Of a stretch of 64,000 nt of DNA, positions 3,674 to 64,000 are shown piece after piece. Source of the stretch: Flavobacteriaceae bacterium LYZ1037 (lineage in GTDB: Bacteria; Bacteroidota; Bacteroidia; Flavobacteriales; Flavobacteriaceae); contig QFWS01000003.1 in assembly GCA_003144015.1 (NCBI GenBank), forward strand, positions 310,001 through 374,000. Reading direction: 5' to 3'. Position numbers and translations under genes: made by a program. Under the pieces are notes generated by a model. It was not told the origin of the DNA and made no database searches. It saw only the letters and a program-made list of their open reading frames with translations. Position 1 is the first letter of the stretch; every line of letters starts with the position of its first letter.

Positions 3674-4735
3674 CTAGTAAAAGTTTTTCATGTTTACATC
3701 TTCGTAATTTCGTTTTACAAAATCAAGTGCATATTTTAAGATATCTCCCATAGTTTTGCTTTTTTTGAAATTGATATCTGAAGTAAACTCATAAATACCT
3801 TCTCTCAACATCTTAACGTATTCTGGTTTTGAAAGTGTATCTCCAATCATACAAGCTATTAATTGCTCAATTCTATCATGATAACTTATCAATCGTTTTG
3901 CCATAATGGAACGCTCTTCTAGTTTGTATTGGTCTATAGATTCTGCTTGAAACTTTTCAGTTACCAACTTAACCATTTCAAGGTTTTCTTTAAAAAACTG
4001 AGGCTTGTAAATATTAAACTTCCCTTCATAACATTGTTGATCAAAATCGATGGCTCGAATTTTATAAACCACTTGATCGAAATCGTGAGTAGGAACAATT
4101 ACGTAATTATAAGACCTCATATCTCCTAAAAGCCTAATTGTACAACGTTCGTTAAATTTTACAAACTCTTTAGCAATTTGAGATTTCTCTAACGGATTGC
4201 ATTCTGGCAACATGTTTTTTATAAATTCATCGCCTGGAATTCCAGCTATATGCTCTTCAATTAAGGTGTCTTTATGTACTAAAAAATTCAGATTATAAGG
4301 AGACAGCATATGTTCTAATTCCAAACCATAAATTCTTGAAGCATCTGCTTTTTTTACATAGAAATAAGTAAAATTATCGTTTAAAATATTTCTAACTTTT
4401 ACACGAAAAGGCTTCGAGTTACCAAAGGTGCAATAATCAACAGCATCAACAGTTAAAAATGGAATGGTCTTTTCGTTTCCATCACTATGTAAAATGGTGT
4501 AAACTTTTTTAAGACTTAAGTCAATTTCTTCACGTTCAAATTCATTATAATACACACGAATCCAAAGGGTGTCGACATCATTTTTATCATATACCACAAT
4601 AGATCCTTGAAAACGTAGCAAGTCGTCATAAAAAATTGGCAGCCTAATATTTCTATTATATTCTGTGAGATATTGGTGTAGTTTTTCACTAACTGGATAA
4701 GATGGTTTTTTTTTTGATATCTTTAAGTCTTCCAT
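3674..4735 (-). CDS. Conserved protein of unknown function, 353 aa
   Basis: I do not recognise a named family. It starts with an ATG at 4735 and has no signal peptide or membrane segment. The N-terminal 140 residues look beta-rich. The region about 165-235 contains GIPGDEFIKNMLP, then RLLGDMRSYNYVIVP, then IRAIDFDQQ. That spacing of an Asn-containing segment followed by a D-F-D loop recalls the catalytic core of HipA-like or PI3K/aminoglycoside-kinase-like folds; this is a resemblance only. The C-terminal third is helical and charged. It lies alone on the reverse strand, convergent with the pRiA4b-like gene and divergent from the ABC exporter, so it is a single-gene transcription unit. Confidence 0.75.
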   Translation of the reverse strand: MEDLKISKKKPSYPVSEKLHQYLTEYNRNIRLPIFYDDLLRFQGSIVVYDKNDVDTLWIRVYYNEFEREEIDLSLKKVYTILHSDGNEKTIPFLTVDAVDYCTFGNSKPFRVKVRNILNDNFTYFYVKKADASRIYGLELEHMLSPYNLNFLVHKDTLIEEHIAGIPGDEFIKNMLPECNPLEKSQIAKEFVKFNERCTIRLLGDMRSYNYVIVPTHDFDQVVYKIRAIDFDQQCYEGKFNIYKPQFFKENLEMVKLVTEKFQAESIDQYKLEERSIMAKRLISYHDRIEQLIACMIGDTLSKPEYVKMLREGIYEFTSDINFKKSKTMGDILKYALDFVKRNYEDVNMKNFY

Positions 4736-4862
4736 AAAAAAATAAGTTCTTCAAATTTAAGCTTTTATTTTTATGGTTGTAACATTTTTAAAAGACACTC
4801 GTCATATAAATACTAACTGTTACCGAGTACATTATCGGGATCAATCAAAAAACTAAAATAAT

Positions 4863-51048: not shown

Positions 51049-51822
51049 ATGATAAAATTCTTTAGACATATTCGCCAAACCATGATAAAAGAAAACAGAG
51101 TTAGCAAATACTTACTGTACGCCATTGGCGAAATCATCCTAGTAGTTATTGGCATTCTCATTGCTTTGCAAATAAACAATACTAACGAAGCGAATAAAGC
51201 AAGAGTAAAAGAATTGCATTATCTTAAAAACATCAAAACCGATTTACTCCTAAACATAGATAACATCAATAGTTTTATTGAAACCAGAGAAACTAAAATT
51301 AAATCGGCAAACATTGTTTTGGAGTATTATGAGGGTAAACCTCTCTCTAATCTTAATGATTTCAACAAAAATATTTTAAACGTTTATATCTGGCATAAAT
51401 TCTATCAAATAAACAACACCTTTTTAGAATTAACCAACTCAGGAAATCTAGCTACAATATCAAATGATGCCATAAAGAACGGTTTACTAAATATAGATGC
51501 GCTTTATAAAGAATTAAAAGGCGAAGAAGAGCATTATCGTTTTGACACAGAGGTACTACTTTATGAGCCTTCGTTTAATGTTTTAGACTTAAATCCACTA
51601 ACAAAAAAATTCATGTACGATGTTAGTAATGGCCAAGCTGGAGAAAATACTGAAATACCTAGAGAAAATTTTGAAACACTTTTAAAAGACACCAAACATA
51701 AAAATGGCTTCGTAATGGCAGTTTATGAATTTACAGTTATGAACGGTCAATTAGCAACCATGAAAAACATGTCTGAAGAACTTCTACATCTAATTGATAA
51801 GGAACTAAAAAAGGATAAATGA
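51049..51822 (+). CDS. DUF6090 family protein, first of three
   Basis: A 257-residue membrane-anchored protein. The N-terminus is the family hallmark: a basic amphipathic start (MIKFFRHIRQTMIKENRVSK), then YLLYAIGEIILVVIGILIALQINN, one transmembrane helix with an acidic residue in the middle of the entry segment. The rest is a soluble helical domain of about 200 residues with no recognised motif. Members typically occur in runs in Flavobacteriaceae. Its stop overlaps the start of the next copy by four bases (ATGA). Function unknown. Confidence 0.9.
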   Translation: MIKFFRHIRQTMIKENRVSKYLLYAIGEIILVVIGILIALQINNTNEANKARVKELHYLKNIKTDLLLNIDNINSFIETRETKIKSANIVLEYYEGKPLSNLNDFNKNILNVYIWHKFYQINNTFLELTNSGNLATISNDAIKNGLLNIDALYKELKGEEEHYRFDTEVLLYEPSFNVLDLNPLTKKFMYDVSNGQAGENTEIPRENFETLLKDTKHKNGFVMAVYEFTVMNGQLATMKNMSEELLHLIDKELKKDK

Positions 51823-52562
51823 TTAAATTCTTCAGAAAAATACGTCAAAACATGATTAAAGAAAACAAAGCTAGCAAATACTTGCTTTACGCCATTGGCG
51901 AAATCATCCTCGTGGTTATTGGTATTTTAATTGCGCTTCAAATTAATAATTGGAATGAAAACAAGAAAATAAATAAATCTATTTCAGAACATTCAGTCAT
52001 TTTGAAACAAAACTTATTGGAAGACAAAACACAGCTGGAACTATTACATCAAAACATGACTGATAATGTTATTTATTCAGATTCTTTGATGATGCAAATA
52101 AAAACTTTAATACCTATTGATGGTAATACAACTAAATATTTAGTGAAATTATTATTGGAATATCAGTTTAGGCCAAATACCAATGCTATGGAAACCATCA
52201 TGCAATCGAACGAAATTCCTTTTTTAAAAACAGAATTACAAACAGCCATTCTTGACTATTATGCTTTAATTAAAAGTGCTCAAGAACGAGAAAACATTTC
52301 AAACACTCAAATTCAAAGTAAATATGAAGTTTTTATTACTTCTCAGTATCCATTGATATTTCAGAGAAATAATAGATGGGATTTTATAAACAACTACTAC
52401 AAAGACGATCCAAGACTATTATTAGCTTTAAATGAAGAAGAATTTCTTGCTGATAAACAATTGGAAATTTTAATCACATCTCGTTATTTTCAAAGCGTTG
52501 CACTTAAAAAATTCTATTCTGATTTGCTGGAAGCTTCAAACTCCATATTAAAACTGCTTTAA
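51819..52562 (+). CDS. DUF6090 family protein, second of three
   Basis: A 247-residue paralogue of the preceding gene. The first about 50 residues are almost the same (MIKFFRKIRQNMIKENKASK, then the YLLYAIGEIILVVIGILIALQINNWNENKK membrane helix), including long identical DNA stretches. The soluble part (about 55-247) is unrelated at a glance, so the membrane module has been kept and the outer or inner domain changed. The translational overlap with the first copy and a 3-nt gap to the third suggest one transcript. Confidence 0.9.
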   Translation: MIKFFRKIRQNMIKENKASKYLLYAIGEIILVVIGILIALQINNWNENKKINKSISEHSVILKQNLLEDKTQLELLHQNMTDNVIYSDSLMMQIKTLIPIDGNTTKYLVKLLLEYQFRPNTNAMETIMQSNEIPFLKTELQTAILDYYALIKSAQERENISNTQIQSKYEVFITSQYPLIFQRNNRWDFINNYYKDDPRLLLALNEEEFLADKQLEILITSRYFQSVALKKFYSDLLEASNSILKLL

Positions 52563-52565
52563 AAT

Positions 52566-52733
52566 ATGATAAAATTCTTCAGACATATCAGACAGGACCT
52601 TCTCAACAAGGGTAAAACCACCAAATACTTCAAATACGCTATAGGAGAAATTGTATTAGTAGTTTTTGGTATTTTAATTGCCTTAAGCATCAACAATTGG
52701 AATGAAAACAGAAAACATATAAATTTTAATTAA
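52566..52733 (+). pseudogene. Truncated third DUF6090 gene (55 codons)
   Basis: An ATG at 52566 opens MIKFFRHIRQDLLNKGKTTK, then a YFKYAIGEIVLVVFGILIALSINN membrane helix, then WNENRKHINFN and TAA at 52731-52733. It has the whole N-terminal membrane module of DUF6090 but none of the about 200-residue soluble domain. It is probably a remnant of a longer gene, although a membrane-only product cannot be ruled out because the module is intact. It lies 3 nt after the second copy and 36 nt before the first FIST gene. Confidence 0.82.
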
Positions 52734-52769: not shown

Positions 52770-53909
52770 ATGAAAGCAAAATCCATAAAAGGACATTCTA
52801 ATTCAGAAATAAAAACAGCTTTAATTCAAAGTATGGCAGATGGATTTAAACCCACTTTGGCCATCGTCTTTTTATCTATAAGTCAAGATAGAAAAGCAAT
52901 ATGTCAGCTTCTAGATAAAGAAAATATTGCTATCTATGGATCAACAAGCAATGGTGAGTTTATCGACGAAGAAAATGAAAAAGAATCGACTGCCATTTTG
53001 TTAATGGATATTAAAAGAGAACATTTTAAAATTTACCTCGAAGAATATCCCAATAAAAACTATCGTGAAACTGCAAAAAACATAGCTTCAAAAGCAAAAA
53101 AAGAATTTAAAAAACCTGCATTCTTAATTGCTGCAAGTCATCTTGAAACTGATGCCGAACAATTACTTTATGGTTTTGAAGATATTATTGGAAAGCATGT
53201 TAATGTTTTTGGAGGAATGGCAGGAGACGATTATACATTTTCAGATCAATTTGTTTTTACAAATGGAAAAGAAAGCAATATTGGAACTGTAGTCTTAGCC
53301 TTAGAAGAAAACAAAATAAAGATTAAAGGAGTTGCCACCTGTGGCTGGAAAGCTGTAGGCACTGAAAAAACCGTTACTAAAAGCGAAGGTAATCATGTTT
53401 ATACTGTAGATAATATTCCTGTATTAGATATTACCACAAAATATGGTGGTTTAGAAAATGTAACTCCCGAAAACGAAAACTTATTACTTGAGATCGCTGC
53501 CAATTTCCCCTTGCAATTACAAAGAGAAAAAGGCGACCCTGTAATGCGACCTGGTTTGGTTGTTGACTGGAGTGATCGTTCCTTTTATTGTAGTGGGTCT
53601 GTACCTCAAGGTTCTAAAGTTCGCTTTTCACTACCACCAGATTTTGATGTGATGGATAAAGTAATTAAAGGTGTTCAACACTTAAAAGATACTGAAATGC
53701 CTGAAGCAGATGCTTTAGTCGTTTTTAGTTGTGCAGGAAGAATTTTATCTCTTGGACCACTAATGAATCTAGAGTTGGAAGGCGTGAAGAATGTATGGAA
53801 TATACCAATGGCTGGTATGTTCTCTAATGGAGAATTAGCCAGAGCAACAGGTGGCAACCTTGAAATGCACAACCTAACAACTTGTTGTGTTGCACTAAAA
53901 GAAAAATAA
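52770..53909 (+). CDS. FIST domain protein 1
   Basis: A soluble FIST_N plus FIST_C protein of 379 residues. FIST_N (about 1-205) includes PTLAIVFLSISQDRKAICQLL, IYGSTSNGEF and the glycine-rich GGMAGDDY segment. FIST_C (about 205-360) includes ATCGWKAVGTEKTVTKSEGNHVY, PVMRPGLVVDWSDRSFYCSGSVPQGSKVRFS and FSCAGRILSLGPLMNLELEGVKN. FIST domains are predicted ligand-binding sensors (possibly for amino-acid-like compounds) that feed kinases, cyclases or chemoreceptors. Here no output domain is attached, so the protein would report to a partner, presumably the downstream kinase. It starts the array, 36 nt after the DUF6090 stub. Confidence 0.93.
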   Translation: MKAKSIKGHSNSEIKTALIQSMADGFKPTLAIVFLSISQDRKAICQLLDKENIAIYGSTSNGEFIDEENEKESTAILLMDIKREHFKIYLEEYPNKNYRETAKNIASKAKKEFKKPAFLIAASHLETDAEQLLYGFEDIIGKHVNVFGGMAGDDYTFSDQFVFTNGKESNIGTVVLALEENKIKIKGVATCGWKAVGTEKTVTKSEGNHVYTVDNIPVLDITTKYGGLENVTPENENLLLEIAANFPLQLQREKGDPVMRPGLVVDWSDRSFYCSGSVPQGSKVRFSLPPDFDVMDKVIKGVQHLKDTEMPEADALVVFSCAGRILSLGPLMNLELEGVKNVWNIPMAGMFSNGELARATGGNLEMHNLTTCCVALKEK

Positions 53910-53925
53910 TTAAACTATAATAAAT

Positions 53926-54234
53926 ATGTATAAACTAACTGTATTGTATGGTCATCCAACAAATGCTGAAGCCTTTGAGAAATACTACAAAGAGAAACAT
54001 TTGCCACTTGCTTCAACTATGGAAGGTGTGGAAAAACTTGAAGTAACCAAGTTACTTGGGACACCAGATGGTCAAAAAGCCGATTATTATAGAATGGCAG
54101 AAATGTACTTTTCTAGTGTTGAGCAAATGCAAGAAACCATGGGGTCTCCAGAAGGACAAGCAACCGTTAACGATCTATCCAACTTCGCAACAGGAGGAGT
54201 CAATGTAATTGTAGGTATAACCGAAAATGATTAA
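53926..54234 (+). CDS. EthD family reductase-like protein
   Basis: A 102-residue ferredoxin-like-fold protein of the EthD family: LTVLYGHPTNAEAFEKYYKEKHLPLASTM at the start and the MYFSSVEQMQETMGSPEGQATVNDLSNFATGG segment are characteristic. EthD was first described in ethyl-tert-butyl-ether degradation clusters, but most members are of unknown activity and many bind small molecules as dimers. It lies between the first and second FIST genes with 16-nt gaps on both sides, an unusual insert into a run of paralogous sensors. It may produce, consume or bind the ligand the sensors read; that is inference. Confidence 0.9.
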   Translation: MYKLTVLYGHPTNAEAFEKYYKEKHLPLASTMEGVEKLEVTKLLGTPDGQKADYYRMAEMYFSSVEQMQETMGSPEGQATVNDLSNFATGGVNVIVGITEND

Positions 54235-54250
54235 CAACTTAAAAGAATAA

Positions 54251-55390
54251 ATGATTTCAAAAACAGTAAAAGGCAATTCAACCGAAGCTATCAAAAAAGA
54301 AATTGACAAGGCAACTTCTGATGGTTTCAAGCCAACATTAGCCATTGTTTTCACTTCAATTAAACAAGACTGGAAAGCTATTATTGATGTATTGAACCAA
54401 AAAGAAATTGCTGTTTTTGGAGCTACTACATCAGGCGAATTTATAGATGGAGATATTGAAGAAGGTAGCATGGTCTTGATGCTGCTCGATATAAACCCTA
54501 AGCATTTCAGAGTTCTATTTCTTGAAACAGGTGAACATACAACCCATGAAAATGCAAAACAAATTGGTATAGCTGGAAAAAACACCTTTAATAATCCTGC
54601 TTTTATTATCGCTTCAGGTTGGTTGCACATAGATGGTGAAAAAATCATTGAAGGCATCATTGAAGGTTTTGGTAATGAAGTAACCGTTTTTGGAGGCATG
54701 GCAGGAGACGATTTAGCCATGCAAGGACCACTAGTTTTTACAAATGAAAAAAGTGCCGTGAATGGTTTGCTTGCATTAATTGTTGATGAAGATAAAATTG
54801 AAATCAATGGTATTGCAACTTGTGGTTGGAAACCTATTGGAACCACCAAAACTGTTACAAAAAGTGAAGGTAATATTGTTTATACAATAGATGATAAACC
54901 CGCTCTTGATATGGTCATGAAGTACCTTGGTCTCGATATAGATTTAGATTCTGGAAATGATGTTCTGACCAATATTGGCGCTTATTACCCTTTACAATTA
55001 GAAAGAGAAAATGTAACTCCTGTGATGCGTACTGCAATGTGGGGAAATAAAGAAGACCGTTCTCTTATTTGTGCAGGCACAGTACCACAAGGAGCTAAAG
55101 TCAGGTTTTCACTTCCTCCAGATTTTGATGCTATTGAACAAGTAATTGACGAATGCAAAGAAGTGAAAAAAGAACGGCAAAAGGAAGCTGATGCACTTAT
55201 CATGTTTTCCTGTATTAGTCGTCATTTATCTTTTGGTATTTTAATGACAGAAGAAATCGAGCAGGTGAAACAAGTTTGGGATGCTCCAATGGTTGGCTTT
55301 TTTAGCTATGGCGAATTCGGAAAATCAAAAACCGGAAAGCATGAATTTCACAATAACACTTGTTGTGTCGTGGCATTAAAAGAAAAATAA
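54251..55390 (+). CDS. FIST domain protein 2
   Basis: A 379-residue FIST_N/FIST_C protein. Diagnostic segments are FGATTSGEFIDGDIEEGSM, GGMAGDDLAM, ATCGWKPIGTTKTVTKSEGN and FSCISRHLSFGILMTEEIEQVK, with the C-terminal NNTCCVVALKEK. It is more like FIST 3 than FIST 1 or 4 (shared start K-T-V/I-K-x-N-S-T-E-x-I and shared LDIDPKHF-like segment), so copies 2 and 3 come from the latest duplication. The third gene follows after 3 nt. There is no output domain and no membrane segment, so it is a cytoplasmic ligand-binding component. Confidence 0.93.
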   Translation: MISKTVKGNSTEAIKKEIDKATSDGFKPTLAIVFTSIKQDWKAIIDVLNQKEIAVFGATTSGEFIDGDIEEGSMVLMLLDINPKHFRVLFLETGEHTTHENAKQIGIAGKNTFNNPAFIIASGWLHIDGEKIIEGIIEGFGNEVTVFGGMAGDDLAMQGPLVFTNEKSAVNGLLALIVDEDKIEINGIATCGWKPIGTTKTVTKSEGNIVYTIDDKPALDMVMKYLGLDIDLDSGNDVLTNIGAYYPLQLERENVTPVMRTAMWGNKEDRSLICAGTVPQGAKVRFSLPPDFDAIEQVIDECKEVKKERQKEADALIMFSCISRHLSFGILMTEEIEQVKQVWDAPMVGFFSYGEFGKSKTGKHEFHNNTCCVVALKEK

Positions 55391-55393
55391 AAG

Positions 55394-56536
55394 ATGAAAT
55401 CAAAAACAATAAAAGCCAATTCCACAGAAACCATTATCAAAGAAATTGATAAGACAACTTCTGATGGATTCAAGCCAACTTTAGCAGTTGTTTTTTCTTC
55501 TATAAAGAGAGACTGGCTTAGCGTAAGTAATGTTTTAAACAAAAAAGAAATTACTGTATTTGGTGCGACAACTGCTGGAGAGTTTATTGATGGTGATATT
55601 GAAGAAGGTAGCATTGTCATCATGTTGCTCGATATGAATCCTGCGTATTTTAAATTAGAATTTCTTGAGACAAGTACAGAAACTACTATAGAAGATGCTA
55701 AAAAGTTAGGAATTATTGGTAAAGAAACCTATACCAATCCAGCATTCATCATAGCAACAGGTGGAATTTTCATAGATGGCGAACAAATTGTGGATGGCAT
55801 CATGCAAGGTTTTGGAGAGGAGGCCACCATTTTTGGAGGGATGGCAGGAGATGATTTGATTGCTGAAAAACCCATTGTTTTTACCAACAATAAAAATAAA
55901 GATAACGCCTTAATAGCACTCATCATAGATGAAGACAAAATAGATGTAAGAGGTATCGCTAGCTGTGGTTGGGAAGCTATTGGAACTTCAAAAACAGTGA
56001 CCAAAAGCGAAGGCAATATTGTATATACTATTGACGACAAACCAGCATTGGATATGTTAATGAAATACCTTGGTGTAGATGTAAAGCAAGATGATAACAA
56101 AGGCATCGTTGCATTTCACAATTCTTGGTATTACCCACTTCAATTGGAAAGAGAAAACGGTGATACTGTAATACGTGCAACCAGATTTGCAAACAGTGAA
56201 GATCGTTCACTTATCTGTACTGGAAGCGTACCTCAAGGTGCTCAAATCAAGTTTTCACTGCCTCCAGATTTTGACGCCATTGAAACAGTTGTTGCAGAAT
56301 GTGCTAGTATTAAAGATAATGAGCAACAACAGGCTGATGCATTAATCATGTTCTCGTGTGTAAGCAGACATTTATCATTTGGAGCCTTAATGAAAGAAGA
56401 AATAGAACAAGTTCAAAATATTTGGAATGCGCCTATGGTAGGCTTTTTTACCTATGGCGAATATGGAAAATCTAAAATTGGTACAAACGAATTTCATAAC
56501 AACGCCTGTTGTGTCGTGGCCTTAAAAGAAAAGTAA
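55394..56536 (+). CDS. FIST domain protein 3
   Basis: A 380-residue close paralogue of FIST 2, 3 nt downstream of it. It shares FGATTAGEFIDGDIEEGSI, GGMAGDDL, CGWEAIGTSKTVTKSEGNIVYTIDDKPALDMLMKYLGV and FSCVSRHLSFGALMKEEIEQV. Differences are concentrated in the segment just before the FIST_C repeat (KQDDNKGIVAFHNSWYYPLQ against DSGNDVLTNIGAYYPLQ), the kind of variation expected if ligand preference has shifted. Cytoplasmic, with no output domain. Confidence 0.93.
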   Translation: MKSKTIKANSTETIIKEIDKTTSDGFKPTLAVVFSSIKRDWLSVSNVLNKKEITVFGATTAGEFIDGDIEEGSIVIMLLDMNPAYFKLEFLETSTETTIEDAKKLGIIGKETYTNPAFIIATGGIFIDGEQIVDGIMQGFGEEATIFGGMAGDDLIAEKPIVFTNNKNKDNALIALIIDEDKIDVRGIASCGWEAIGTSKTVTKSEGNIVYTIDDKPALDMLMKYLGVDVKQDDNKGIVAFHNSWYYPLQLERENGDTVIRATRFANSEDRSLICTGSVPQGAQIKFSLPPDFDAIETVVAECASIKDNEQQQADALIMFSCVSRHLSFGALMKEEIEQVQNIWNAPMVGFFTYGEYGKSKIGTNEFHNNACCVVALKEK

Positions 56537-56539
56537 AAA

Positions 56540-57700
56540 ATGAGATCAAAATCAATACATGGTAAATCTGTTTCTGACATCCAAAGTGAATTGGATAATG
56601 CAATGGTTGATAGATTTAACCCAACTTTAGCCATTGTCTTTATTTCTGTAAAGCAAGACAGAAAGGCTATTTGTGACTTGTTAGATTCAATAAATATTGA
56701 TGTCTTTGGAGCCACATCTTGTGGCGAATTTATTAATGGCCACCAGACTGAAGGTGCAATAGCCATATTACTTCTTGAAGTAGCTAAAGAAAATTATAAC
56801 ATCTTGTTTGAAGATATAGAAGATACTAATCTAGATAACGCGGTCTCCAATTTGGCTAATAATGCGCTCAATCAATTTGCTAACCCATCACTCATCCTTT
56901 GCAGTTCAGGAATAAATTTAAAAGAAGAATTTTTAGATGGTGAAAAATTAGTAAATAGTATGAAAAAAAGCCTTGGAGCAGAAAAAATATTCTTTGGTGG
57001 TTTGGCTGGAGACGATTGGACATTAAAAGGAAGTTTTGTGTTCACAAATAAAAAAGATTCAGATAATGGTATCGTTGCTTTAGTATTAGACGGAAATAAA
57101 ATCGCTTTAAAAGGAATGGCAGTAACTGGCTGGAAACCAATGGGAATTAGAAGAACTGTCACCAAAAGTAAGGGTAATTTACTCTACGAGATAGATGGTA
57201 AATCTGCTGTTGAACTATACTTGAAATATTTAGGAAAAGAAGAAAAACTATCGGATCAAAATTTTAAAATATACGAGGAAATAGGGTTTGAATATCCCTT
57301 CATTGTAGAGAGAGATAAAACCGAAACCATTCTGAAAACGCCTGTGAATATTGACAGTAAAGAAAAGGCACTTGTTATGAACATCCCTATGGAAGAGGAT
57401 TCAAAATTTTGGTTCACACAACCACCAGAATTCAATATCGTTGAAGAAGTAATTGAAAAAGCAACCCAATTAAAACAAGACATCAATAAAGGAGTTGATG
57501 CCCTGTTAATTTTTTCGTGTGCAGGAAGACAACCTATTCTTGGACCCATGTCAACAGAAGAGAACGAAGGCCTCGCCGAACTTTGGAAAACACCTATGGC
57601 TGGATTTTTTACCTATGGCGAAATAGGCAGGTCGTATCAAGGCAAGCAAAATTTTCATGCAGGTGCATGTTGCTGGGTAACATTAAAAGAAAAAGCATGA
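56540..57700 (+). CDS. FIST domain protein 4 (divergent copy)
   Basis: A 386-residue FIST_N/FIST_C protein and the most diverged of the four. It keeps FGATSCGEF, GGLAGDDW, VTGWKPMGIRRTVTKSKGNLLYEIDGKSAVELYLKYLG and FSCAGRQPILGPMSTEENEGL. It lacks the Met-Arg-like strand of the others (residues about 250-270 read PFIVERDKTETILKTPVNID), and the usual P-Q-G turn is replaced by MEEDSKFWFTQPPEF. The end CCWVTLKEKA differs from CCVVALKEK. Its stop overlaps the kinase start codon (ATGA at 57697-57700), so translation is probably coupled to the kinase. This copy may be the direct partner of the kinase; that is inference. Confidence 0.92.
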   Translation: MRSKSIHGKSVSDIQSELDNAMVDRFNPTLAIVFISVKQDRKAICDLLDSINIDVFGATSCGEFINGHQTEGAIAILLLEVAKENYNILFEDIEDTNLDNAVSNLANNALNQFANPSLILCSSGINLKEEFLDGEKLVNSMKKSLGAEKIFFGGLAGDDWTLKGSFVFTNKKDSDNGIVALVLDGNKIALKGMAVTGWKPMGIRRTVTKSKGNLLYEIDGKSAVELYLKYLGKEEKLSDQNFKIYEEIGFEYPFIVERDKTETILKTPVNIDSKEKALVMNIPMEEDSKFWFTQPPEFNIVEEVIEKATQLKQDINKGVDALLIFSCAGRQPILGPMSTEENEGLAELWKTPMAGFFTYGEIGRSYQGKQNFHAGACCWVTLKEKA

Positions 57701-58743
57701 ATCAACACCTCAAACATATTTTAGATTTTATTGAAAGTTCAAATCACTTTTCTGAAGATGACAAAGCTGCCTTATTAAAATCGGTAAAGAGTGCCGATAA
57801 AGATTTGCTCATTTCAGATTTTAAATTAGAACGAACTGAAAAAGTAAAACGCACCACTGCTATTTTATTAGAGGAAACCATTGAAGAATTAGAGCATAAA
57901 CGAAAAGCTATAGAAGACACAAACAATGCACTTCAAAAATCGTTAGATGAGCTTAAAGCGACTCAAACTCAATTAATTCAATCCGAAAAAATGGCAAGTT
58001 TAGGTGAATTGACTGCTGGAATTGCCCATGAAATTCAAAACCCTTTAAACTTTGTCAATAATTTTTCAGAAGTCAGTAAAGAATTACTCGAAGAAATGTT
58101 GGAAGAAATTGAAAATGGCGACATGGAAGAAGTCAATGCCATTGCACAAGATGTCATTCAGAATCTAGAGAAAATAAACCACCATGGAAAACGTGCAGAT
58201 GGTATTGTAAAAGGCATGTTACAACATAGCCGAAGCAGTTCTGGAGTAAAAGAATTGACAGATGTCAATGTTTTGGTAGATGAATATTTACGTCTGGCTT
58301 ATCATGGCTTACGTGCTAAAGACAAATCGTTTAATGCTGCATTGGAAACACATTTAGATGATAATATTAAAAGAATAAGTATTGTCTCTCAAGATATAGG
58401 TCGTGTGGTTTTAAACCTTATTACCAATGCTTTTTATGCTGTGAACGAAAAGAAAAAAAAACAAACTGATGCTTATGAACCAAAAGTAACTGTTGAAACA
58501 AAAAAATTAAAAGATGCCATAGAAATTTCTGTAAAAGACAACGGAAATGGCATTCCTAAAAAAGTATTGGATAAAATATTTCAACCGTTTTTTACAACCA
58601 AACCTACTGGACAAGGGACAGGATTAGGCTTATCCTTAAGTTACGATATTATTAAAGCACATGGTGGCGACATTAAAGTAAACACCAAAGAAAACGAAGG
58701 CACAGCATTCATTATCACATTACCAACAACCAACAACGCATGA
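57697..58743 (+). CDS. Cytoplasmic sensor histidine kinase
   Basis: A soluble histidine kinase of 348 residues. Translation starts at ATG 57697, overlapping FIST 4. An upstream in-frame start at 57517 lies inside that gene and is rejected. The N-terminal about 110 residues form a helical and coiled-coil region (EETIEELEHKRKAIEDTNNALQKSLDELKATQTQLIQSEKM) with no sensor domain of its own. The phospho-acceptor H-box is SLGELTAGIAHEIQNPLNFVNN. The ATPase has the N-box NLITNAFYAV, the G1 box DNGNGIP and G2 GQGTGLGLSLSYDII. Lacking a sensor, it probably takes input from the FIST proteins or from the large downstream protein. Its stop overlaps the start of that ORF. Confidence 0.95.
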   Translation: MNQHLKHILDFIESSNHFSEDDKAALLKSVKSADKDLLISDFKLERTEKVKRTTAILLEETIEELEHKRKAIEDTNNALQKSLDELKATQTQLIQSEKMASLGELTAGIAHEIQNPLNFVNNFSEVSKELLEEMLEEIENGDMEEVNAIAQDVIQNLEKINHHGKRADGIVKGMLQHSRSSSGVKELTDVNVLVDEYLRLAYHGLRAKDKSFNAALETHLDDNIKRISIVSQDIGRVVLNLITNAFYAVNEKKKKQTDAYEPKVTVETKKLKDAIEISVKDNGNGIPKKVLDKIFQPFFTTKPTGQGTGLGLSLSYDIIKAHGGDIKVNTKENEGTAFIITLPTTNNA

Positions 58744-61700
58744 AACTGACAAAAAAAATAGAAACCGAAATCTGGAAGATTTATGATACTTGGATGCAAG
58801 GATACCTGAATGCAGATGTCGAAACATATAATTATTATTTTGATGAAGACTATCATTTTATAGGCTCGACAAACAATGAAGAATTTCTAAACAAAAAAGA
58901 TACTACAGATTTTTTTAAAGCTACAGGAGACCAATTTGCTGGATTGACAGATTTGCGTAAGGAAACCAAAACAATTGAAGTTTTTGGAGAACATGTTTTT
59001 ATAACCCATTTTTTTGATGCTTGGTTTAAAAACGAAAAAGATTGGAGTTATTATGGGAGATTTCGATTTTCTTCTGTAATGCATAAAACTAAAGAAGGCT
59101 GGCGTTTTATATATCAACATTTTTCAATGCCAGACTCTAAATCAGAAGAAGGACAAACCATTGGCTTCGATAAAGTCCATCTTGAAAATCAAGAGCTTCG
59201 AGAAGCTATTCAACGTAGAACTACAGAACTAGAGCAAAAAAATCGTGAACTCGAAGTAGAAACAGCTTTAGAACGCATTCGCGCACAAGCAGTAGCCATG
59301 AAAGAATCCACAGATTTGCTGGATATTGTGGTAACCATGCGCAATGAGTTTATTAAACTTGGTCACGAAGCACATTATTTCTGGCACATGATGTGGCTCC
59401 CAAAAACATACGAAAAAGCCATGACTTCAGGTGATGGTAGCAAAATTGGTTTTGTAATGGAGTTACCAAGGCACATACATGGCGACATTCCTCAATTAGC
59501 AAAATGGGAAAAAAGCAAAAAACCAACCGTTGTGTATGTCATGAATGTAGATGAGGCCATTGAATACGTTGACAAAATGATCAACCTAGGGGACTTTAAA
59601 AACATAGATCCACAAGCGCCAACACATGATGACATCAGGCATATTGGCGGCCTGACCTTTATCATGGCACGAACCACACATGGAGAAATTGGTTACTCTT
59701 TGCCTGGAATTGTAAAAAACCCTCCAAAAGAAGACATTGATATTTTAGTAAAATTTGCAGGCGCTTTTGATTTAGCACATCAGCGTTTCCTCGACCTACA
59801 AAAAGCTGAAAAACAAGCACGCGAAGTTCAAATAGAATTAGCACTTGAAAAAGTACGAAGCCGAACCATGGCAATGCAACGTAGTGAAGAATTGCAAGAA
59901 GCCTCTTTTTTATTAGATCAACAAATAAGAGCATTAGGCATTAAAACTTGGGGATGCGCTTTTAATATTTACGGAGAAAACGAATCAACCGAGTGGTTTG
60001 GAAACGAAGCTGGTATTTTACACACTTATACAGTTCCGAGAGAAGGCATATTTAAGGACTATTACAACAAAGGTCAAAAAGGTGAATCACTTGTCATTAA
60101 AGAGTTTTCTGGAGACGACTGTGTAGCTCATTACGAATATATGAGTTCACTTCCTGTTATAGGAGATGTATTAAAAACCTTAAAAAAAACAAACAATGGT
60201 TTTCCAACCTACCAAATAGACCATGTTGTTTATTTTAGGTATGGCTATCTATTATTCATTACGAGAGAACATGTACCAGACTCACATGATATTTTTAAAC
60301 GTTTTGCCAAAGTCTTTGAGCAAACCTACACACGTTTTCTAGACCTTCAAAAAGCTGAAGCGCAAGCCAGAGAAGCACAGATTGAAACTGCTTTAGAACG
60401 TGTAAGATCAAGTGCAATGGCTATGCACAAAAGTGATGATCTCACAAAAGCAGTAGATATTGTATTTTCAGAATTAAAACAATTAGAATTTAACACAGTT
60501 CGTTGTGGTATTGGCATTTTTAATGACCAGTCTAATAATGTAAATGTGTGGACTACCTCATCCAATAACAAGAAAGAAACCTCACATTTGTCTGGCGATG
60601 AAAAACTTGAAGGTCATCCACTTCTAGATGGAATCTACAATGCATGGAAAAAGCAAGTAGATTTTTCTTATACTTTAAAAAATAAAGATCTTGAAAATTA
60701 TTACCAGATTGTTTCAAATTCAAACCTTCCGGTCACTGCAACTATTGATGATGATAAATTAACAACTCAATACTACCATGTCGTTGTTTTTCCTGCAGGA
60801 GGACTTTTTGCCTTTAGTGACACCGAATTTACCCAAGATAAAAAACTATTAATGAAGCGTTTTGGAGAAGTATTTCACCTTTCCTTTACTCGTCACCTTG
60901 ATTTAAAACAAGCTGAAGCGCAAGCCAGAGAAGCTCGAATAGAAATGGCTTTAGAAAAAGTACGTTCGCGAACTATGGCCATGCAAAATAGTAGCGAATT
61001 GCCAGAAGCTGCCAACAACTTGTTTCTTCAAGTACAAGAATTAGGTATTCCTGCTTGGAGTGCTGGCTATTGTATTTGGGAGGACAACCAGAAAAGTGCT
61101 TGGTGCAATATGAGTAGTGAAGGTGAGATTCAAAAAGGATTCTCCTTACCTACTATTGGCGAAGGCTATAATTTTGAGAAACCGCTTAAAAATAACGAAC
61201 CATTTCATGTTGCAGAATTGGGTGGTAAGAAATTAGTAAAGCATTACGACTTTATGAAGACACTTCCAATTGTTGGAGAAGTTTTAGAAAACTTTGAAAA
61301 ATTAGGGATTGCATTACCAACCTTTCAAATTTTCCATATTGTTTTTTTTACGCATGGTTATCTCATGTTTATCACATACGAAGCTGTTCCAAACGATTGG
61401 GAAGTTTTTAAACGTTTTGGGAAAGTTTTTGAACAAACTTATACGCGCTTCCTAGACCTTCAGAAAGCAGAAGCACAAACTCGCGAAGCACAAATCGAAG
61501 CCGCCTTAGAACGTACACGTACTCAAAGTATGCTCATGCAACATTCTAATGAATTAAACACAACAGCTCAAGTTTTTCATGAGCAACTACAATTACTAGG
61601 TATAGATTCTGAATTCTCCTATTTATGGCTGCCGGACGAAACTGAAAAAAATCATCAGTTTTGGGCAACATGGAGTGAACGCAAGAAAAGAAAAACCATT

Positions 61701-64000
61701 TACAAGAATAAAGCAGTTACGTTTCCTTTAGATAAAAGTGAACCCTCTATTGAAGCTTGTTATGTTGCGTGGGAAAGTGGAGAAACTGTTCATGTCAACC
61801 CTGTACATCCAGATCAAGTGGAAGACTATTTTAACACATGGTCCGAATTGCTTAATGACGTTGAAAAATTTAAACCAGAATTATTTCCAGAGGGATTGTA
61901 CTATATAGATGCCTATATGGACTATGGTTGCTTTGGTATTATGATAAAACGTCAACTTAATAACGATGAAAAAAATATACTAAGTCGTTTTTCTAAAGAA
62001 TTTCAACGGACTTACACACGTTTTCTAGACCTTCAAAAAGCAGAAGCCCAAACCAGAACAGCTCAAATAAACTTAGCAGTAGAACGCGTAAGAGCCAAAG
62101 CTTTGGCCATGCACAAATCTGAAGAGATTATGCAAGTAGTAGCAAAGCTAAAAGACGAAGTCATGTCTCTAGATATTCCTAATGTGATTGCCGCAACTAT
62201 TTTCTTAAATGAAGGCGAGGATAAAGTAAGAATGTGGGATTTGTCATCCTTAGAAAAAGATGATGCTGGTTATGAGATCCCTTTTGACATCACTTTTAAA
62301 TTAAAAAAATCGGATCCTCATTTATATGTAAAACGTGTTTGGGAAAATCCAAATGACTACTTTTTAGAATTACAAGAAGCAAAAGACTTTAAAAGAATTA
62401 TTGCATGGCTTCGAGAAAATAATAAAAATGACATTGCCGATGAAGTTGAAGAATATACTGAATCCACAAAATTAGAACGTTTGCATCATGCCGTAAAAAA
62501 ATTAAATAATGGCAAGTTGGTTATCGATTTATTGAATCCACCTTCCAATGAAATGGAAACCATTTTAACTAAAATGGGAGCAGCATTCGATTTAGCCTAC
62601 AAACGTTTTGAAGATTTACAAAAAGCAGAAGCACAAGCTAGAGAAGCACAGATTGAAGCGGCATTAGAAAGAGTACGTTCACGTTCTTTAGCTATGCACC
62701 AAAGCCATGAAATGAATGCTGTGATGGAAGAGTTTTTAGTAAGAATACGGAGTCTGGATATTGATTTTGACGCAGCAGCTATTATCGAATTTAAAGACAA
62801 ACACTTTGACGTGTGGTCAGGGTATGAGTCGGGTACCGTTAGTATGGTCAGGTTTCTTTTTGCTGAAATGGAAATTAAAGTGTTAAAAGATTTACTAACG
62901 GCAAGGCAAAATGGACTGGAGTTGCTCTCACACCAATATTCATTTGAACAAAAGAATGAATTCTTTAACGACTTAATCGAAAAAACGAGTTTTGGTGAGA
63001 CTATAGGGGAAAGAAAAAAATTCCTCATGGAAACGGAATGTTATACCGTTTCAGTTGGTTTTGCAAAACACATTGCCATACAATTAATGAGTTATTCTAG
63101 ACCGTCATTTTCAGAATCTGATAATAACGTATTAATGCGATTTGTAAAAGTTTTTGAGCAGGCCTATGTTCGATTTCTCGATTTACAAAAAGCTGAGGCA
63201 CAAACTCGTGAAGCACAAATTGAAGCCGCTTTAGAGCGTGTACGTTCAAGAAGTATGGCCATGCATAAAAGTGTAGAAATGTTAGAGATTATAGAAGTTA
63301 TCGCTAAACAATTATTGCAATTAAATTTGAAATTTGATACTGTAAGTTTTGGAAAGAATAATCAAGAAGGAGATTTTAAATTCTGGATTGCATCTAAAGG
63401 ACAACCCAAACCCATGTTAATTCAGGTTCCATTTTTTAACTGTAGAATGCTAAATACTGTTCAAGAGGCGCAAAAAGAAGGGATCAGCTTTTTGCAAAAT
63501 GTTTTTAATGCAAAAGAAACCAAGGAATGGAGTCAACATTTAATCAAATTCTCAGATTTAAAATATTTACCTCAAGAAGTAAAAGATTTTATATTAAATG
63601 CACCAGGTTTTGCGCGATCTAGCTTCTTACTTAAGAGTATCAATTTATATGTTGGTAATTATAGAGCCATTCTTTTCACAAAAGAAGAAAATGAAATTTT
63701 TAATCGCTTTGCAAAAGTATTCGAGCAGTCCTACATACGTTTCCTCGATTTACAAAAAGCAGAAGCACAGTCAAGAGAATCTCAAATTGAAGCCGCTTTA
63801 GAAAAAGTACGTTCGCGTTCCTTGGCCATGCATAAACCTGATGAACTTCAAGAAGTGGTTGCTGTGGTTGCTGAAAAACTTCAGGAATTAGGAGTGATAT
63901 ACGATGCTGGTGGTGTCATTCTCTGTACTTACTTCCCAGACAACAAAGATGTTGTGCATTGGATTGCTGTTGATGACTTTTCAACTTCGGGAAGATATTT
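58740..64000 (+). CDS. Giant multi-sensor protein with NTF2-like head and eight or more GAF-like repeats, 3' end outside the window
   Basis: The frame is open from ATG 58740 (ATGA overlap with the kinase) to the window end, 1,753 codons with no stop. Residues 1-130 resemble a SnoaL/NTF2 domain (IYDTWMQGYLNADVETYNYYFDEDYHFIG). A coiled coil with RRTTELEQKNRELEVETALERIR follows. From about 195 to the end come eight complete modules and the start of a ninth, each about 140-150 residues of GAF-like alpha/beta sequence. They are joined by a linker of about 40 residues of the form R-F-L-D-L-Q-K-A-E-A-Q-A-R-E-A-Q-I-E-A-A-L-E-R-V-R-S-R-S-M-A-M-H-K-S near 349, 532, 718, 903, 1093, 1289, 1478 and 1667. 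No membrane segment was seen. A kinase or other output domain may lie beyond the window. Confidence 0.93.
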   Translation, partial: MKLTKKIETEIWKIYDTWMQGYLNADVETYNYYFDEDYHFIGSTNNEEFLNKKDTTDFFKATGDQFAGLTDLRKETKTIEVFGEHVFITHFFDAWFKNEKDWSYYGRFRFSSVMHKTKEGWRFIYQHFSMPDSKSEEGQTIGFDKVHLENQELREAIQRRTTELEQKNRELEVETALERIRAQAVAMKESTDLLDIVVTMRNEFIKLGHEAHYFWHMMWLPKTYEKAMTSGDGSKIGFVMELPRHIHGDIPQLAKWEKSKKPTVVYVMNVDEAIEYVDKMINLGDFKNIDPQAPTHDDIRHIGGLTFIMARTTHGEIGYSLPGIVKNPPKEDIDILVKFAGAFDLAHQRFLDLQKAEKQAREVQIELALEKVRSRTMAMQRSEELQEASFLLDQQIRALGIKTWGCAFNIYGENESTEWFGNEAGILHTYTVPREGIFKDYYNKGQKGESLVIKEFSGDDCVAHYEYMSSLPVIGDVLKTLKKTNNGFPTYQIDHVVYFRYGYLLFITREHVPDSHDIFKRFAKVFEQTYTRFLDLQKAEAQAREAQIETALERVRSSAMAMHKSDDLTKAVDIVFSELKQLEFNTVRCGIGIFNDQSNNVNVWTTSSNNKKETSHLSGDEKLEGHPLLDGIYNAWKKQVDFSYTLKNKDLENYYQIVSNSNLPVTATIDDDKLTTQYYHVVVFPAGGLFAFSDTEFTQDKKLLMKRFGEVFHLSFTRHLDLKQAEAQAREARIEMALEKVRSRTMAMQNSSELPEAANNLFLQVQELGIPAWSAGYCIWEDNQKSAWCNMSSEGEIQKGFSLPTIGEGYNFEKPLKNNEPFHVAELGGKKLVKHYDFMKTLPIVGEVLENFEKLGIALPTFQIFHIVFFTHGYLMFITYEAVPNDWEVFKRFGKVFEQTYTRFLDLQKAEAQTREAQIEAALERTRTQSMLMQHSNELNTTAQVFHEQLQLLGIDSEFSYLWLPDETEKNHQFWATWSERKKRKTIYKNKAVTFPLDKSEPSIEACYVAWESGETVHVNPVHPDQVEDYFNTWSELLNDVEKFKPELFPEGLYYIDAYMDYGCFGIMIKRQLNNDEKNILSRFSKEFQRTYTRFLDLQKAEAQTRTAQINLAVERVRAKALAMHKSEEIMQVVAKLKDEVMSLDIPNVIAATIFLNEGEDKVRMWDLSSLEKDDAGYEIPFDITFKLKKSDPHLYVKRVWENPNDYFLELQEAKDFKRIIAWLRENNKNDIADEVEEYTESTKLERLHHAVKKLNNGKLVIDLLNPPSNEMETILTKMGAAFDLAYKRFEDLQKAEAQAREAQIEAALERVRSRSLAMHQSHEMNAVMEEFLVRIRSLDIDFDAAAIIEFKDKHFDVWSGYESGTVSMVRFLFAEMEIKVLKDLLTARQNGLELLSHQYSFEQKNEFFNDLIEKTSFGETIGERKKFLMETECYTVSVGFAKHIAIQLMSYSRPSFSESDNNVLMRFVKVFEQAYVRFLDLQKAEAQTREAQIEAALERVRSRSMAMHKSVEMLEIIEVIAKQLLQLNLKFDTVSFGKNNQEGDFKFWIASKGQPKPMLIQVPFFNCRMLNTVQEAQKEGISFLQNVFNAKETKEWSQHLIKFSDLKYLPQEVKDFILNAPGFARSSFLLKSINLYVGNYRAILFTKEENEIFNRFAKVFEQSYIRFLDLQKAEAQSRESQIEAALEKVRSRSLAMHKPDELQEVVAVVAEKLQELGVIYDAGGVILCTYFPDNKDVVHWIAVDDFSTSGRY
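59190..63850 (+). repeat. Repeated ~560-nt modules with conserved linker inside the giant sensor gene
   Basis: Linker copies begin at about 59787, 60336, 60894, 61449, 62020, 62606, 63173 and 63740, spaced 549-586 nt apart. The linker is highly conserved in protein and partly in DNA, while the sensory parts between copies have diverged much further. A variant first linker lies at 59190-59330. Confidence 0.9.

Follow-up and report, generated by a model that had tools for sequence, protein, structure and literature searches.

Several FIST types, four related histidine kinases and a receiver-linked cyclase encoded in one Flavobacteriaceae operon

Introduction

What do four solo FIST proteins do when their genes are followed directly by that of a soluble histidine kinase in which no sensor domain is recognised? 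FIST domains are sensors of wide occurrence for which only a few ligands are known. Smaller arrangements of this kind are on record, as far as the available portions of the papers describe them: in Burkholderia, NosP is the inhibitory binding partner of NosK, a kinase lacking any known sensor domain (PMC12570481), and in Vibrio the solo FIST protein VpsV is encoded next to the sensorless kinase VpsS (PMC4398556). The haem ligand of NosP is not given in the available portion of PMC12889525, and residues by which the cyclase BcPycC reads UTP are given in that of PMC11224242. In the open-access literature we found no description of a multi-FIST array with the chassis and output reported below, and no paper on the FIST domain in Bacteroidetes.

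The locus lies in Flavobacteriaceae bacterium LYZ1037, in a 64,000-nucleotide stretch of a 419-kb contig (the window; G000:C30:310001-374000). Positions are those of the window, and the analysis was extended past its end and into related genomes.

Results

A 14-gene operon runs from FIST genes to receivers and a cyclase

The FIST genes open a run of 14 genes on the forward strand that spans 22,722 nt (22.7 kb) and ends where the next genes lie on the opposite strand. Their order is FIST1-EthD-FIST2-FIST3-FIST4-HK1-giant-HK3-propeller kinase-REC-REC/class III cyclase-PycTM-vWA-ORF348, with successive junctions of 16, 16, 3, 3, -4, -4, -4, 22, 7, -1, 31, 69 and 2 nt, the largest gap being 69 nt. 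A crude scan found no in-frame Bacteroidetes-type promoter consensus upstream of FIST1 or within the scanned stretch. About 11.5 kb of the operon, with the end of the giant gene and everything from HK3 onward, lies beyond the window. An earlier note, made from the window alone, had described the four FIST genes, the EthD gene, a soluble kinase and the giant gene as closely spaced, and the first six junctions bear this out. It had also taken the soluble kinase for the only visible output, which the sequence past the window does not support: the REC protein and a receiver-linked cyclase, the likely output, and then a Pycsar-type membrane protein lie downstream; the giant is moreover a kinase itself, and two more kinases follow it.

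The FIST proteins FIST1 (clade alpha, 379 aa, 52770-53909), FIST2 (beta-2, 379 aa, 54251-55390), FIST3 (beta-3, 380 aa, 55394-56536) and FIST4 (gamma, 386 aa, 56540-57700) were identified by Pfam and classified by their position in a tree. Between the first two lies the gene for a small EthD-family protein (102 aa, 53926-54234; PF07110, 48.6 bits; TIGR02118, 95.2 bits against a cut-off of 30.5). HK1 (348 aa, 57697-58743) has HisKA and HATPase_c, matched by Pfam on a longer GTG open reading frame that begins within FIST4; translation probably begins at the ATG in position 57697, within an ATGA overlap with FIST4. The giant gene follows at 58740. Past the window, on the same strand, are HK3 (436 aa; kinase with a weak SnoaL_3 match), an HTCS-type propeller kinase (1,287 aa; Reg_prop, Y_Y_Y and HATPase_c above cut-off, HisKA below), a REC protein (124 aa), a REC-Guanylate_cyc protein (REC-cyclase, 346 aa), a PycTM protein (186 aa; Pfam PycTM, 56.2 bits, cut-off 27.2), a vWA protein (467 aa; the vWA match is in its relative L098:18134-19537) and ORF348 (348 aa; no Pfam match). 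Kinases with a phosphoacceptor histidine and receivers thus occupy the same operon, as in two-component systems.

Upstream of the operon, 51049-52562 encodes a tandem pair of similar membrane proteins, the first matching DUF6090 and the second recognised by eye, and directly 5' of FIST1 (about 52566-52733) lies what by eye is a short remnant of a third. L098, L099 and L100 have similar genes ahead of their arrays.

FIST arrays combine different FIST types

All four FIST proteins carry FIST_N and FIST_C above the Pfam cut-offs. The AlphaFold model of FIST1 (pLDDT 92.9) has as its best Foldseek match the eukaryotic FIST protein FBXO22 (E 2.7e-10), in entries that are complexes with a BACH1 dimer; weaker matches are to cyclic amide hydrolases and chorismatases. 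A FIST protein gripping a dimeric partner would therefore not be unprecedented. Searching by sequence for solved FIST or GAF-repeat structures returned nothing convincing, with FBXO22 appearing only at E 0.028. The NCBIfam NosP model NF041558 matches all four at 34.1, 42.2, 58.6 and 38.1 bits, and it matches 54 of 60 array FISTs. With an equivalog cut-off of 450, these scores are too low for FIST1-4 to be called NosP orthologues.

A tree built from 210 FISTs of arrays and 14 single FISTs resolves the clades alpha (support 0.97), beta (0.98), gamma (1.0) and delta (1.0), with weakly supported branching between them (0.26). It included proteins of 340-412 aa (340-420 in a first set) and 14 of 16 single-FIST proteins, L009 and L017 being left out; the single FIST gene of L009 carries one in-frame TAG stop. 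One FIST_C histidine (residue 367 in FIST1) reaches a conservation of at least 93% in the single-FIST group and in the alpha, beta and gamma clades, and stays below 80% in delta.

The number of FIST genes per array varies. Among 55 loci with at least 6 kb of upstream sequence, 10 have one, 19 have two, 13 have three, 10 have four and 3 have six. Across 59 operons with two or more full-length FISTs, six further loci having been dropped as duplicates of named loci, an alpha FIST is present in 54 and a clade is repeated in only 8, against 28.3 ± 3.1 expected; none of 5,000 shuffles, which ignore relatedness, gave so low a count. Counting each composition once leaves 6 of 31 with a repeat against 16.4 expected, and merging the beta subclades gives 21 of 59 against 33.4 ± 3.1 (again 0/5,000 shuffles). 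Since repeated clades are rarer than in the shuffles by each of these counts, merged beta included, arrays avoid duplicate types, yet pairs of beta FISTs are common.

In some arrays (L090:4747-5082; L087, reverse complement, 4405-4740) other small genes lie between the FIST genes: one for a DUF6616 protein (assigned by Pfam in L090) and one for a second EthD type. Such proteins are possibly part of the sensor panel.

The N-terminal module of HK1 travels with FIST arrays

The first 82 residues of HK1 (57697-57942) form a module, delimited from alignments and from its occurrence in relatives, that we propose as a candidate FIST docking or input site. Among 80 relatives, this genome included, FIST occurs in 22 and tandem FIST genes in six (G000, G001, G002, G007, G044 and G048); the module was matched in those same six and in no other. 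A wider sample of 395 genomes of the phylum has the module in 15 and FIST in 89. The module is present in 14/14 genomes with tandem FIST genes against 1/75 other FIST genomes, a Fisher comparison in which relatedness is ignored. A FIST gene lies upstream of the module gene on the same strand in 15 of 15. Second, weak module matches in G133 and G325 (E ~8e-4) were left uncounted.

The best 80 of 186 relatives from a named-genome survey were taken as loci. A module gene was called in 79 of them, 68 with at least 1.3 kb of upstream sequence; in L095, L097 and L178 the module gene escaped the gene caller. The end of a FIST gene is no more than 300 nt from the module gene in 60 of these 68; in the other eight the distance is 419-1,135 nt, and a single gene usually intervenes. 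Named genomes from several Bacteroidota families have this neighbourhood of FIST genes and module kinase. The module itself is attached to more than one output: in 16 of the 79 loci it is fused to GAF repeats and a kinase, and once, in L096, to GAF repeats and a SpoIIE phosphatase. No FIST-module fusion was found among the called genes of these best 80 loci. In L130, L142 and L193, a BRO-family-like gene separates the kinase from the last FIST gene and looks like an insertion (L130:8081-8938, L142:9150-10004, L193:9149-10000), with Bro-N matched by Pfam in the first and the other two alike by eye.

The 16 remaining FIST-bearing relatives have a single FIST gene, usually adjoining a kinase whose N-terminal region differs and has a conserved 'LLxRQ...SSxELFxAN' stretch (L006-L021); in L012 and L015 no kinase follows within the stretch read. 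This is a common NosP-NosK-like pair in the relatives, separate from the arrays. As a candidate for a FIST-partner motif common to both kinds of kinase, similarity between the HK1 module and this input region was sought and rejected (hhalign probability 0.6%).

The giant protein is a tenfold GAF-repeat kinase, and four kinases have closely similar cores

The giant gene (58740-64000 within the window; L005:8740-15762 in full) encodes 2,340 residues comprising a SnoaL_3 domain (58776-59135; PF13474, residues 13-132, 68.3 bits), ten predicted GAF-fold repeats and, at the end, a histidine kinase of its own. The repeats, about 190 aa each (183-195 aa) and set off by an 'AxxREAQIExALERVRSRS' spacer, occupy 59253-64910 (contig C30:369253-374910), the last ones falling past the window. 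Pfam GAF models matched none of 68 repeats. The repeat model (pLDDT 94.0), in contrast, has ten PDB matches at E <= 0.001, which are GAF domains or GAF-containing photoreceptors or PDE2A. The term GAF-like, used in the earlier note, agrees with this model. The polysensor of more than 1,753 residues in that note is, in full, this 2,340-residue protein ending in a kinase.

These repeats follow the FIST arrays closely. They are found in 7 of 80 relatives, namely 6/6 FIST-array genomes and 1/74 others (G032), and in 33 of 395 genomes of the phylum, namely 14/15 module genomes and 19/380 others. Their number differs between congeners (10, 10, 6 and 11 matches), which suggests recent expansion or contraction of the GAF sensor panel.

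Identity to the kinase core of HK1 is 78% for the core of the giant, 70% for that of HK3 and 66% for that of the propeller kinase, against 33% for the next best in the genome, and the helix around the phosphoacceptor histidine is nearly identical in all four. Cores and a helix so similar suggest, at the level of sequence, that the four kinases have a receiver in common.

The receiver-linked cyclase is of predicted adenylate type

The REC-cyclase occurs in 19 of the 79 loci with a called module gene, with a REC gene immediately 5' in 19 of 19. PycTM occurs in 10 of the 79, within 200 nt after the REC-cyclase in 10 of 10, and all of these loci are in Flavobacteriaceae. Because locus flanks end at 10 kb, apparent absence of either gene often reflects a cut neighbourhood. 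Elsewhere, L090 and L166 have REC-SpoIIE in place of REC-cyclase, and some complete neighbourhoods have kinases only; from these counts and replacements, the output varies by group.

The lysine of DKF[IML]GD and the threonine of LD[YF]TVIGD, which we take to be adenine-reading positions, are present in 20 of 20 cyclases, as are the metal-site aspartates. The REC-cyclase also aligns with photoactivated adenylyl cyclases. It is thus predicted to be of adenylate type, making cAMP. Against PADLOC models, the REC-cyclase reaches at best 87.5 bits with PycC and the next gene at best 96.1 bits with PycTM, so that a class III cyclase stands beside a PycTM gene as in Pycsar. In L120, L121 and L122, a different kind of class III cyclase gene has a further PycTM-family gene directly after it, and the pairing thus recurs.

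A chassis without FIST genes

Full-length REC-cyclase orthologues (at least 69% identity) were found in eight genomes, the six array genomes plus G032 and G046, the latter two without FIST; G012, with a partial match, and G026, with one of 31%, were excluded. G032 has giant-kinase-kinase-REC-REC-cyclase, and in view of this FIST-free chassis, FIST and HK1 would seem to be an input that joined an older chassis. In 4/4 operon-bearing congeners the operon end adjoins the gene for the same 458-aa protein, which looks like a peptidase. In four congeners without FIST, that gene has other neighbours within the 1.5 kb read, one stretch stopping at a contig end.

Discussion

We think that the operon probably encodes a multi-input two-component system in which FIST subunits and kinases control the REC-cyclase. 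The solo cytoplasmic FIST proteins of different types would be dissociable sensor subunits, each with its own small molecule or haem/gas state to bind, and would press on HK1 at its N-terminal coiled module, so that autophosphorylation rises or falls. Docking of FIST on this module appears to us the simplest reading, given the likeness to the FBXO22-BACH1 dimer and the NosP-NosK precedent. The giant may read further signals through its ten GAF-fold domains and the propeller kinase a signal from outside. Because the dimerisation and phosphotransfer region is nearly the same in all four kinases, all of them would feed into REC and REC-cyclase, the operon's two receivers. Cyclase activity would depend on phosphorylation, and the predicted cAMP may, in Flavobacteriaceae, be read by the adjoining PycTM-like membrane protein.

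Three other explanations were weighed against this one. The operon could be a NosP-NahK system in the strict sense, its FIST proteins being orthologous to NosP, with haem as cofactor, NO as signal and HK1 as the kinase that they inhibit. The NosP model matches all four proteins and most array FISTs, the genes and the sensorless kinase are arranged as in NosP-NosK, and the FIST_C histidine is conserved in most groups. We nevertheless judge it unlikely, with scores far under the cut-off, a histidine less well kept in the delta clade, several types per array, and single-FIST genes with another kinase, a layout nearer to that of NosP, existing separately. Were the FIST and GAF domains instead to detect infection, with a cyclic pyrimidine made in response and PycTM killing the cell, the locus would be a regulated Pycsar-like anti-phage system. 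The PADLOC matches, the Pfam score of PycTM, the cyclase-PycTM pairs in L120, L121 and L122 and the variability of the locus within the genus all fit that picture. Against it, all 20 cyclases have adenylyl-type rather than the UTP-reading residues of BcPycC, at positions that we assume to be equivalent; PycTM is present in just 10 of 79 loci, and PADLOC gave no match for the FISTs tested, HK1, REC, vWA or ORF348. This reading seems to us distinctly improbable.

There is only a slim chance, in our estimate, that the genes are merely co-transcribed, with FIST proteins that act elsewhere and with independent kinases in HK1, the giant and the rest. The FIST-free chassis of G032 and G046 speaks for such independence, whereas the tight association of module and FIST over 395 genomes, the fusion of the module to different outputs beside FIST genes, and the kinase core that the four proteins have in common argue against it. 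The module beside FIST in 15/15 genomes, its fusion to repeats in 16/79 loci, and repeats in 6/6 array genomes against 1/74 others support the proposal of the earlier note that FIST proteins, kinase and giant form one conserved system, and its neighbourhood search, once carried out, places the gene order well beyond one genome.

The multi-input system that we favour is related to, and differs from, several known ones. As in NosP-NahK/NosK and VpsV-VpsS, a solo FIST gene adjoins a soluble kinase without a recognised sensor domain, with a partner receiver in the operon. Those systems have one FIST, whereas most arrays here have two to six FIST genes; c-di-GMP enzymes are found there and a cyclase output here; and the HK1 module shows no detectable similarity to the input region of the relatives' single-FIST kinases. 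The class III cyclase gene directly 5' of a PycTM-family gene recalls Pycsar, but here the cyclase is fused to a receiver, stands behind four kinases and carries adenylyl-type residues, and PycTM is missing from most related loci. Bacteroidota multi-GAF and hybrid/propeller (HTCS) kinases likewise have a GAF fold and HisKA/HATPase, and the fourth kinase has their Reg_prop and Y_Y_Y; the giant differs in its ten tandem repeats (6 to 11 in congeners), which lack a Pfam match and are tied to FIST arrays. The suspicion that the arrangement was undescribed therefore held in part: a solo FIST beside a sensorless kinase was already known, and the multi-FIST assembly looks new, although its parts are of known types.

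A bolder generalisation, which we put forward tentatively and with some doubt, is that FIST arrays are sets of one-of-each interchangeable sensors acting on a portable docking module of about 80 residues, carried by kinases or SpoIIE, with the panel set by gene content. In Flavobacteriaceae they would drive a two-component-controlled cAMP/PycTM membrane response, which would make this the first Pycsar-type effector under a phosphorelay. The natural sets of FIST types beside one recognisable module open FIST coupling to a simple binding and kinase assay. If the proposed system is correct, it would show how dissociable sensor subunits can gather onto one kinase. It would also add a cyclic nucleotide output to FIST signalling, described so far, in the sources as available, with c-di-GMP enzymes, and would place a Pycsar-type effector outside stand-alone defence.
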